Source of the DNA: Watersipora subatra
Taxonomy: Eukaryota > Bryozoa > Gymnolaemata > Cheilostomatida > Watersiporidae
Direction: 5' to 3'
DNA: 64,000 bases
Assembly (NCBI RefSeq): GCF_963576615.1
Contig: NC_088709.1
Span: 18,052,150 to 18,116,149 of the forward strand
Below, one piece after another: positions 13,221 through 33,124 of the stretch. A program made the position numbers and the translations under genes. Under the pieces are notes generated by a model. That model saw only the letters and a program-made list of their open reading frames with translations. It did not search any database and had not been told where the DNA came from. The first letter of the stretch is position 1, and each line of letters begins with the position of its first letter.

Positions 13221-14841
13221 CTAAATAACGAGAAAATGTGCTGCAGCCAAAACCGAAATAGCTATATTTTTAGGAACCTCAAATTTCGGGATCTCACCGG
13301 TACAATCTTTGTAACAAGCTTTGTATGTCAGATAGTTGCATATAACGGCGAGAACGCTTGACCTGCAACAAATAGAAACGCGTGCGTGAATTTATCAGTT
13401 TGTTGATTTCTGAGGGGATTTATATCTAGAATACGCAAGCTAATCAATTCAAACTTACGGAATGCTCGCCAAGTGAATCTCATTTATTTCGTCATCTGGA
13501 CAACTGCCGGGACCGGTCATCATTGCTGATAGGGTACAAGAAAGCTCTACAAGCTCTTTTTTTAGAAGAAATTCATGACCGTCTGAAGCTATCAACCTAA
13601 CATGAGTAGCTGGTGGTTTTGGAGTTTCTTGGTACTAGAATATACATTTAATATGTACATATATACAATACATATGCATGTGTGCGATATATACATGAAT
13701 AATAAATAGCATTATATATGTATATATATTATACATATAATAGTAAATATACATATATAATATACAATATCATATGCAAATGTATAAAATATATAATATT
13801 TTATATATAATACATAATTTATATCTAGTTTCCATATTCTACATAATATATATAAATTTGTGCATTTGTCTGTCTGTCTGTCCAGTAATGGAGACAAAGT
13901 TTTAGCAATAAAAAGTCTGCTACATACTGAATTTGAACTCACAACCTCCAGTTCTACAGACAGGTATTTATCCAATACACTACGCTGTCCAAATAGCTAT
14001 AACATAGATAAAATTCTGCACATAATTATTAAATTTGCCAATCTTTCATGGCTTCAAGCTTACCATGTCAGCTTGTGGAATGCGTGAAGCCATAACAAAA
14101 AAAATATGTTGTCAACATGTGAAAAAATGATTTAATCATCGATATATTATTGCAATTAGTATAGATCTGTAGTAGACACTGCAGTCTGTACAGTATGAAT
14201 TACATAAAAATAAACACAGTACAAAAAATTAACTGTACACAGAATTAAACAAAGACCTTACTTTAAAAGTTAGAATGGTAAATGTTGTTTGTTGATTGAA
14301 AGTAAATTTTCTGTGTGAACATGCAACGCCAAGCATTCAACCAGTATAAGTATATATTTACTGCAAACTGAACAATTATGTTCAGCTTCTACAAATAAAA
14401 CTGTTCTTCTATCACTCTCATAATTGCTTGATATTGTGCTTTTGTTACGGGTCAAAATCTAGTTACATAGAGTTATGCTTTCACTATGACGCAAACTGAC
14501 AACTCCTAAATACTATTAAGATTAACTAATCTTTTTGACATTGTGCATAAATAAGCAGCAATGAAGAATCTTAAGCTGCTAAAAGAATTCACCTTAGCAA
14601 AGTTCCTCAATGAGAACTAGTCTAACACTATTTTTTACCTAATTTGAAAGCAAGATTTATCACTCTTCATCAATAATACTCTTCTTAAAAAACATTTTAA
14701 AGGTTGATATGATAAAATCACTCGCAAGGTTATTTTTGAGTAACTAAAACCAGCAATCTTAGTTACCGATAGTCAGTTTTAAAAGCTTTTACATAAAATA
14801 CTTGAAAAGAATCTTACGTATGGGTTTTGCCAGTCAGCCAT
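13221..14841 (-). CDS. Divergent Elongin C paralogue (copy C), 3 exons, 113 aa
   Basis: Coding exons are 14818-14841 (MADWQNPY), 13459-13634 (phase 0 to 2) and 13221-13362 (phase 2 to TAG). A 5'-UTR acceptor lies just before the start (exon from 14853). Exon 2 reads THVRLIASDGHEFLLKKELV and MMTGPG, matching the Elongin [17 protein letters not shown] and MLSGPG blocks. Exon 3 reads SSVLAVICNYLTYKACY and EIPKFEVPKNIA. Family length is about 112 aa. The fold core is kept, but human-numbered pocket residues differ: L103 to V, M105 to A and the C-terminal C112 to I (end HFLVI instead of NFLDC), and the NSS turn is replaced by DCT. The same intron positions and phases as the two other copies show origin by DNA duplication, not retrocopying. 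The frame is intact with clean splice sites, so it is probably expressed. Role inferred: altered or specialised adaptor of Cullin-2/5 ligases, possibly with changed receptor choice. Confidence 0.88.
13921..13991 (-). repeat. tRNA-derived SINE head (in intron 1 of copy C)
   Basis: The minus strand reads GCGTAGTGTATTGGATAAAT then, at B-box distance, TTGTGAGTTCAAATTCAGTA. Strongly similar to the plus-strand copy at 44221-44290, including the following AGCAGACTT, so both belong to one SINE family. Confidence 0.65.
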
Positions 14842-14892
14842 TCTTCTTGGTATCTAAAATTAAGCAAAACAACTAATATTTTGTGTAAGGGC

Positions 14893-32000: not shown

Positions 32001-33124
32001 CATTTGTGCTTTTGATTTATATTATAGTTTGTATATGTACATGTATCTACTAATAAATAAGTAAATATATGGACTTGTGACAGTGCTCTGATAACTTGAA
32101 CGCTCTGATAATTCGAACACTTTTGCTCAGTCCCTTGAAGTTCGAGTTATCCATGTTTGACTGTATATTGTAATGAGAAACCATCAAAATAAAATTAAAT
32201 TAGAAAAATCTACAAAATTATTTGTTTCGGAGTTAAAAAGGCATCTTCAATCAAATTCTTAGGAATTCATTTGGACAGTCACCTGATATGGGACACACAC
32301 ATCAACAAACCAAATAAGCAGATAGAACCTATGTCAGGCCTGATTAGAAGTTGTTCTAAATTTTTACCAAGAAGTATTATGAAACTAATATACAACGCGT
32401 TTATTAACTGAAAAATTGGTTACTGTCTTGAGTCCTTGAGAAAATGTTTTATTTTGTTATTTAAAAAATACTAATATCACAAAAGTGTCTAATGCGCATA
32501 ATATTTAATAAATCACCACTAACTTTATCTCGGTCCCTGTTTGTTCAACTGTCTGTGTTGCCTGTTGACAAACTTTACCAGTATAAAATTTTCTTGATAA
32601 GCTCATTCAGAATTTTATTCAAGTGATGATAAAACGAAGAAGGATTCACGCTACAACACCAGATTTTTAGAAACCAATCTACCTTTACCATTATTTTATA
32701 ATGCTTCAGGTAAAAAAAAACAATCGAATATAGCGTACCATCACAATGGAACAGTCTTCCAATAAACTTACACCAAACCTCTGCATTTACTAGTTTTAAA
32801 GTTAATATGAAAAGCCATTTGGCAAACCTAGATTCATAGAGGGAAGACCTGCTGTTTATGTTTGCCAATTCTTGTGGGTCCAGTGCCTTGACTAGCTGCA
32901 GTGCTACTGCCCATGTAGGCCTCATCACGCCTTAACAATAGGAACTAAGCTTCATTGTTTTATTCAACCTAATCAATATTATTATTGTCTTTATTTTTGC
33001 TCAATGTCATATTTCTACTAATTGATGAAATAAAACATACACACAAAATGTTTAATTTTATCTTGTAAAAACATCGGAGATAATAAGATACCTTTTCTAC
33101 TTCTGCTTCCTTCATGTCAGACAT
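26095..33124 (-). CDS. ELOC: Elongin C (transcription elongation factor B subunit), 3 exons, 116 aa
   Basis: Coding exons are 33092-33124 ([11 protein letters not shown], phase 0, donor AAG|GTATCT), 28935-29110 (ends CC|GTAAGT, phase 2) and 26095-26236 (ends in TGA). A 5'-UTR acceptor TTTGCAG precedes the ATG (exon from 33133). Exon 2 starts [20 protein letters not shown] and contains [15 protein letters not shown]; exon 3 reads [28 protein letters not shown] and [12 protein letters not shown]. Apart from the N-terminus it is almost the same as human Elongin C. It binds Elongin B and the BC box of VHL, SOCS and Elongin A proteins, bridging them to Cullin-2/5 ligases, and is part of the Elongin (SIII) complex. 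Intron 1 (4 kb) holds an antisense LINE with nested transposons; intron 2 holds two MITE-like elements and a 34 bp repeat. This copy heads a co-directional array of three. Confidence 0.98.
26244..26402. repeat. 34 bp tandem repeat in ELOC intron 2, about 4.5 copies
   Basis: Units contain CTCAGCTCTTATCTTATTAA followed by TAGAGTTATCCTAG; one unit is shortened. It starts directly after the exon 3 acceptor. Confidence 0.85.
27135..27760. mobile_element. Inverted-repeat element in ELOC intron 2
   Basis: AATGACTTTTGTTGGCTGCC at about 27187 is repeated in reverse complement at about 27719-27740. TGCTATGTTGGGTAACCATA near 27162 has a relative near 27653. The right part also contains an 18 bp arm hairpin starting ATCTAATTGCCGTGCTAT with one mismatch. 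It looks like a composite of two foldback MITEs and a GCCCGGG-type repeat. Confidence 0.5.
27819..28218. mobile_element. 400 bp MITE with TA target duplication
   Basis: Left end CCGTACTTTTCGGACTATTA and right end TAGTCCGGAAAGCACGG are inverted repeats of about 27 bases, flanked by TA on both sides. Ends of the type CCGTATTTTCCGGACTATAA are widespread in animal genomes. The middle holds a further imperfect palindrome (28069-28129) with GGCGCA...TAACCGGA arms. No coding capacity. Confidence 0.75.
31366..31485. mobile_element. 120 bp hAT-like MITE nested in the pogo-like element
   Basis: A near-perfect hairpin begins CACGGGCTAGCCGGGT and ends with its complement ACCCGGCTAGCCCGTG-type sequence. 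It is flanked by an exact 8 bp duplication, ATGAATAG (31358-31365 and 31486-31493). An 8 bp duplication points to the hAT superfamily. The arms differ at only a few bases, so it is young. Confidence 0.88.
31498..31529. repeat. Perfect 13 bp hairpin
   Basis: Arms CCGACGTTGATTC (31498-31510) and GAATCAACGTCGG (31517-31529) surround a 6 base loop, just right of the nested hAT-like MITE. Confidence 0.8.

Follow-up and report, generated by a model that had tools for sequence, protein, structure and literature searches.

Three complete Elongin C genes, predicted from sequence and all on the minus strand, lie at 13221-33124 of the window, i.e. the whole 64,000-nt stretch of Watersipora subatra (Bryozoa) DNA analysed here (GCF_963576615.1, NC_088709.1:18,052,150-18,116,149, forward strand). 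Elongin C, a strongly conserved protein, serves as a hub common to CUL2 ligases, CUL5 ligases and Elongin A. The explanation that we favour, with a probability of roughly one half, is that these are the intact members of an old tandem family, in which two of the three genes (copies B and C) have been retained as alternative adaptors that would be weaker for CUL2. Copy A would then be the ordinary Elongin C, joining Elongin B, a BC-box receptor and either CUL2 or CUL5, while copies B and C would have arisen by duplication at the DNA level, introns included, and would have been kept thereafter.

Gene models, family membership and neighbourhood

The genes were located by tblastn with human Elongin C as query, which matched exons 2 and 3 of every copy (the two exons of copy C in a single joined match), and exon models were then spliced. 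First coding exons were taken from open stretches of at most 45 nt that begin with ATG and end in phase 0 at a donor agreeing with the consensus in at least 7 of 9 places. The features are as follows.

33124-26095, minus strand: copy A, whole gene (spliced model, 116 aa)
33092..33124, minus strand: copy A, coding exon 1, 33 nt (spliced model and first-exon criteria)
28935..29110, minus strand: copy A, coding exon 2, 176 nt, phase 0 to 2 (tblastn and spliced model; also a genome-wide Skp1_POZ match)
26095..26236, minus strand: copy A, coding exon 3 with stop, 142 nt (tblastn and spliced model)
24942-22748, minus strand: copy B, whole gene (spliced model, 111 aa)
24925..24942, minus strand: copy B, coding exon 1, 18 nt, MSDNVT (spliced model and first-exon criteria)
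24466..24641, minus strand: copy B, coding exon 2, 176 nt (tblastn and spliced model)
22748..22889, minus strand: copy B, coding exon 3 with stop, 142 nt (tblastn and spliced model)
14093-13221, minus strand: copy C, whole gene (spliced model, 115 aa)
14064..14093, minus strand: copy C, putative coding exon 1, 30 nt, MASRIPQADM (spliced model and first-exon criteria)
13459..13634, minus strand: copy C, coding exon 2, 176 nt, encoding Ser64 in human numbering (tblastn and spliced model)
13221..13362, minus strand: copy C, coding exon 3 with stop, 142 nt, encoding Lys92, Ala105 and Ile112 in human numbering (tblastn and spliced model)

All six introns are bounded by GT-AG and occupy two identical positions, in phases 0 and 2, and the reading frames of A, B and C run open to the stop at family length (116, 111 and 115 aa). 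A processed retrocopy or pseudogene was considered and rejected, each copy having two GT-AG introns and an open frame. Together, the tblastn matches and the spliced models bear out much of what an earlier note on this DNA had claimed, namely three complete minus-strand copies in 20 kb with open frames of family length, clean splice sites, a second exon of 176 nt (phase 0 to 2) and a last exon of 142 nt in every copy. The same note put the first coding exons at 24, 18 and 33 nt; the lengths for B (18) and A (33) hold, and that of C is 30 nt rather than 24. The search for these short exons returned a single candidate for B and two for C, each within 1.5 kb upstream of the respective exon 2, and seven for A within 5 kb. 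Only one of the seven starts MSD as copy B does, and the first coding exons of A and B share the start ATGTCTGAC (MSD). The two candidates of copy C use a common splice donor, the second being a bare ATG, and the first coding exon of this copy is a prediction of fair, not strong, quality.

Among PDB sequences the best match is Elongin C for each copy (E = 7.9e-68 for A, 4.9e-35 for B and 2.5e-25 for C), values so low that chance resemblance is excluded for all of them. At E <= 0.001, Elongin C accounts for 22/22 of the PDB sequences matched by B, for 22/22 of those matched by C and for 22/23 of those matched by A, the remaining one being SKP1 at 1.8e-5. An identity as SKP1 was rejected on the best matches of A, B and C. 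The Skp1_POZ domain (PF03931), which the three copies have in common with the SKP1 family, scores 43.3 bits in A, 38.0 in B and 28.6 in C, in each case above the Pfam cut-off of 21.9. SKP1 carries an additional C-terminal part beyond the end of Elongin C; the copies, in contrast, stop at the Elongin C end point, and SKP1 is absent from the PDB matches of B and C at the above threshold. With animal Elongin C (ELOC/TCEB1; human PDB 1vcb_B), all copies agree in fold family, length and C-terminal helix end, while Ser64 in B and C and Lys92, Ala105 and Ile112 in C set these two apart from the human protein. Over 105 core residues, 100 are identical to human in copy A, 58 in B and 46 in C, in keeping with the earlier description of one nearly identical and two strongly diverged genes. 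Between copies the counts are 56 (A-B), 44 (A-C) and 43 (B-C), i.e. the core proteins are 41-53% identical.

In the rest of the genome, a search of the assembly (784 Mb, 239 contigs, 11 candidates scored) with Pfam Skp1_POZ gave three matches at E <= 0.001, namely exon 2 of copy A and two places on contig 3. Copy A only just passed (9.9e-4) and B and C fell below the threshold, so further Elongin C copies elsewhere are possible. The two places on contig 3, 33198730-33198921 (E 2.6e-24) and 33187019-33187198 (E 5.1e-4), lie about 11.5 kb apart on one strand and are possibly SKP1 and a diverged tandem neighbour, as candidates only. A search for distant relatives produced 140 pattern matches in viral contigs and 45 in genome contigs, of which tblastn confirmed none.

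On the 5' side of copy A, in divergent orientation, lie exons of GTF3C3, a TFIIIC subunit (46288-60930, plus strand), two of which match PDB 8clk_D (46324-46614 at 2.2e-9 and 58977-59240 at 1.6e-17), the others being recognized by eye. A Tc1/mariner-type transposase frame is found at 51616-52296 on the minus strand (Pfam HTH_Tnp_Tc3_2, 2.6e-18), with a further piece at 51196-51423 identified by eye. Broken frames at 37450-39820 (minus strand) look by eye like a retroelement polyprotein, and one piece of them (37559-37960) had no match in Pfam. A Pfam scan of ten window ORFs for neighbours left eight without a match, and no tRNA genes were found in the window with bacterial settings. Minisatellites occur at 4936-5922 (34 nt x 29), 48194-48957 (17 nt x 45), 56929-57400 (34 nt x 14) and 59809-60368 (87 nt x 6), and between copies B and C (17661-18185) stands a GA-rich tract some 0.5 kb long. 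Intron 1 of copy A contains an inverted repeat (31366-31485; 55-nt arms, 93% complementary, 10-nt loop), and a 34-nt tandem repeat (26245-26401) stands immediately before the acceptor of its last exon.

The CUL2-tail pocket and the receptor groove

An idea of what the diverged copies might do comes from the positions that meet the cullin. The N-terminal tail of CUL2 sets Leu3 against Glu64, Met105 and Phe109 of Elongin C (PMC5462531; PMC11779939). The CUL5 N-terminus lies outside this contact, although CUL5 His48 does touch Phe109 (PMC11779939). Calorimetry with human VBC gave a KD for Cul2 that changed from 9 to 317 nM with M105A and to 177 nM with F109A in the table of PMC5462531, whose running text speaks of 20- and 37-fold, seemingly in the opposite order to the table. 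At residues 64, 105 and 109, copy A has Glu, Met and Phe (3/3), B has Ser, Met and Phe (2/3) and C has Ser, Ala and Phe (1/3); position 64 is Gln in yeast Elc1 and hence not invariant in Elongin C. The Leu3 pocket is altered by Glu64 to Ser in B and C and by Met105 to Ala in C, and CUL2 binding would therefore be expected to be weaker, more so in C than in B. Both may be freer for CUL5, for a limited subset of receptors or for a particular tissue. This cullin-selectivity step is the least certain part of the explanation that we favour.

In a CRL2-FEM1B structure, the receptor groove of Elongin C consists of Val73, Tyr76, Phe77, Phe93, Ile95 and Leu103, and Leu104 packs onto the receptor (PMC11053023). 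Of these seven residues, copy A has 7/7 identical to human, B 4/7 and C 3/7. By sequence comparison every replacement in B and C is hydrophobic or aromatic, including Phe93 to Leu and Ile95 to Phe in copy B. B and C are thus predicted to keep a hydrophobic groove for the BC-box helix, which, with the fold family intact, would suit them as alternative adaptors. Tyr79, whose replacement by Cys in human Elongin C mimics VHL deficiency (PMC9402235), is present in A, B and C. Among the somatic changes reported from renal cancers with mutated ELOC is Glu92Lys (PMC9402235; PMC12679826); Glu92 is kept in B, and copy C has Lys at this position. Copy C ends in Ile instead of the Cys112 of A, B and human, and copy B has Cys at position 100, at which Ala100Pro is described as a renal-cancer mutation at receptor interfaces (PMC10761929). 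Lys92 and the loss of Cys112 speak against the explanation that we favour, since copy C may have become poorer at binding receptors and not just CUL2, and the groove replacements and Cys100 of copy B count against it too.

The same residues weigh on a division of labour in which B and C would be biochemically equal to A, would be used in particular tissues or stages (e.g. the germ line) and would have drifted with fewer partners, a reading that deserves attention even if we hold it to be rather unlikely. In its favour, C. elegans is reported to possess an additional Elongin C, called ELC-2 (PMC4693473), and B retains Met105, Phe109, Tyr79, Glu92 and Cys112. However, two contacts of CUL2 Leu3, Glu64 and Met105, are altered in C, as is Glu92, and B itself is altered at Glu64.

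Age and order of the duplications

Synonymous sites of the copies are saturated. At fourfold sites the third base is the same in 9/26 cases for A-B, 6/21 for A-C and 5/20 for B-C, which is near chance level (20/67 pooled over the three pairs, 95% upper limit 0.42), and pairwise dS was undefined or ended in numerical error with NG86, LWL85 and YN00, as saturation would give. Sensitive blastn among the gene regions (seven-letter seeds) found exonic matches between A and B, in exon 3 (144 columns, 67%) and at the start of exon 2 (24 nt), the other matches being of 13-31 nt only. The strongest non-exonic one, 31 nt between intron 2 of copy A and DNA upstream of C (E 1.4e-5), falls on the A side at 27536-27566, within one arm of a dispersed inverted repeat (27461-27581); the remaining short non-coding matches have E >= 0.3. 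No repeat family of at least 40 nt was found that links all three genes outside their exons. Copy A differs from human at five core sites. B and C agree with human at three of these (22, 34 and 83) and with A at 60, and at 96 they match neither. The changes of copy A at 22, 34 and 83 are most simply read as later than the duplication.

How the copies branched is a more difficult matter. Under LG, JTT and WAG, B and C were joined on a common stem, apart from A and human (2dlnL 26-30); as many shared B/C replacements were seen in 5/500 null simulations. Both copies depart from A and human at 31 sites and have the same residue at 9 of them. Two of these nine, Ser64 (AGC) and Glu94 (GAG), are written with the same codon in B and C, three base changes from that of A. 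When the tree was rooted with yeast Elc1, the sole non-animal sequence used, B and C split off before A and human parted. A lineage-specific origin was worse by 8.2 lnL under LG (AU 0.029, SH 0.155), by 6.3-6.6 under LG+G4 (AU 0.049, SH 0.185) and by 7.6 under JTT (AU 0.049, SH 0.187), a rooting difference reached by 0/200 parametric replicates. The sites chiefly driving this result are 94, 96 and 40, and B and C share with yeast the states L42, L62, L77, E94 and P96, where A differs. All this would be consistent with B and C deriving from an Elongin C gene that branched off while the lineages leading to this animal and to human were still one, and that was lost in most other animals, a reading which we nevertheless consider improbable. 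The SH test rejects the lineage-specific tree in none of the three models (0.155-0.187), and yeast can also be put elsewhere close to B or C without rejection. Yeast, B and C all have long branches, which leaves the result prone to attraction, and the tree holds a single non-animal sequence. Moreover, overall similarity to yeast is no higher for B (35 of 96 residues) and C (30) than for A (37). Under LG+C20+G4 and C60, although they fit the data of the copies worse than LG+G4, the deep-rooting and common-stem signals both fall to 0.31 lnL or less (0.2 or less for deep rooting). Strong in site-homogeneous models and dissolved under C20/C60, neither a deep origin of B and C nor their common stem is claimed here. 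The claim made is that the duplications are old; their order and age are model-dependent.

A bolder version, to which we give slightly less credence still, is that a second Elongin C lineage of ancient date, made up of B and C, supplies CUL2-independent (CUL5-type) adaptors, the BC hub being split by cullin. If this were true, the normally shared Elongin BC hub would be divided into cullin-dedicated adaptors in this animal.

Probable constraint on copies B and C, and its meaning

Codon models with a clock give one neutral rate to all copies, which is reasonable within 20 kb and yet an assumption. In these models dN/dS = 1 is rejected in 4/4 topologies both for B (2dlnL 41-64, p 2e-10 or less) and for C (2dlnL 22-38, p 3.2e-6 or less). 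The free estimates are 0.001-0.12 for B (about 0.1) and 0.07-0.24 for C (about 0.2), single values being soft as a short internal branch sat at the upper bound of 5 in two topologies. In a codon model without a clock, where each branch has its own length, fixing w = 1 gives a 2dlnL of 3.84 for B and 0.30 for C. The earlier note had proposed computing dN/dS among the copies; with equal neutral rates a value of 1 is rejected for both B and C, and without the clock it cannot be rejected for C and is borderline for B. Pairwise maximum-likelihood dN/dS values (A-B 0.065, A-C 0.18, B-C 0.26) are averages that include the constrained branch of A.

Simulations that started from copy A and ran neutrally to the identity of B or C (2000 runs, kappa 1.2 and 2, indels ignored) point in the same direction. 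At the identity of C, the runs free of stops numbered 7/2000 with kappa 1.2 and 11/2000 with kappa 2, and those with replacements as conservative as in C 1/2000 and 5/2000, respectively; at the identity of B, 37 and 65 of 2000 were stop-free and 17 and 18 of 2000 as conservative. Long neutrality of B and C is thus unlikely, and recent loss is still compatible with the simulation. Thirty of A's core residues are retained in B and C alike, above the expectation under independence (hypergeometric P 0.008). Under the clock assumption, then, B and C are under purifying selection. As for the earlier suggestion of duplication followed by relaxed or new selection, duplication and divergence stand; relaxed selection is less favoured, given the clock models and the conservative replacements, and new selection on B and C is plausible, solely from the residues of the CUL2-tail pocket.

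These results also bear on whether B and C, or C alone, lost function some time ago and have taken no stop or frameshift yet, which strikes us as doubtful and as the least credible of the biological alternatives. The branch model without a clock permits w = 1 for C and nearly so for B, and C departs at Glu64, Met105, Glu92 and Cys112. However, such decay is strongly rejected by the equal-rate models, splice sites and frames are all intact, and the core residues kept jointly by B and C exceed what independence would leave. An assembly artefact or haplotype duplication, a check set beforehand, can be dismissed outright, being excluded by the saturated synonymous sites and by introns and flanks without homology except for the repeat piece and short matches at chance level, with core proteins as far apart as reported above.

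That genes duplicate in tandem and then diverge is commonplace, and extra Elongin C genes are already known. The C. elegans ELC-2 is itself diverged. That genome likewise contains an Elongin C plus an extra paralogue, ELC-1 and ELC-2 (PMC4693473, a figure legend that mentions no array), and the statement that Elongin C is normally a single gene was therefore too strong. The ELOA3 array is also a tandem-multiplied elongin subunit, although it concerns another one and is made of primate Elongin A retrogenes (PMC10664989), whereas the copies here bear introns and are strongly diverged. No tandem Elongin C array was named in the titles and abstract openings of the open-access literature searched. 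What is unusual in W. subatra is that one highly conserved copy and two strongly changed, intact ones adjoin each other, with pocket positions altered. On the explanation that we favour, that of an old tandem family with B and C retained as alternative adaptors, these diverged and apparently constrained copies would offer natural variation at residues identified as CUL2 contacts by structures and mutagenesis of the human protein, and the system could test whether the adaptor, instead of the receptor, can set the choice of cullin.
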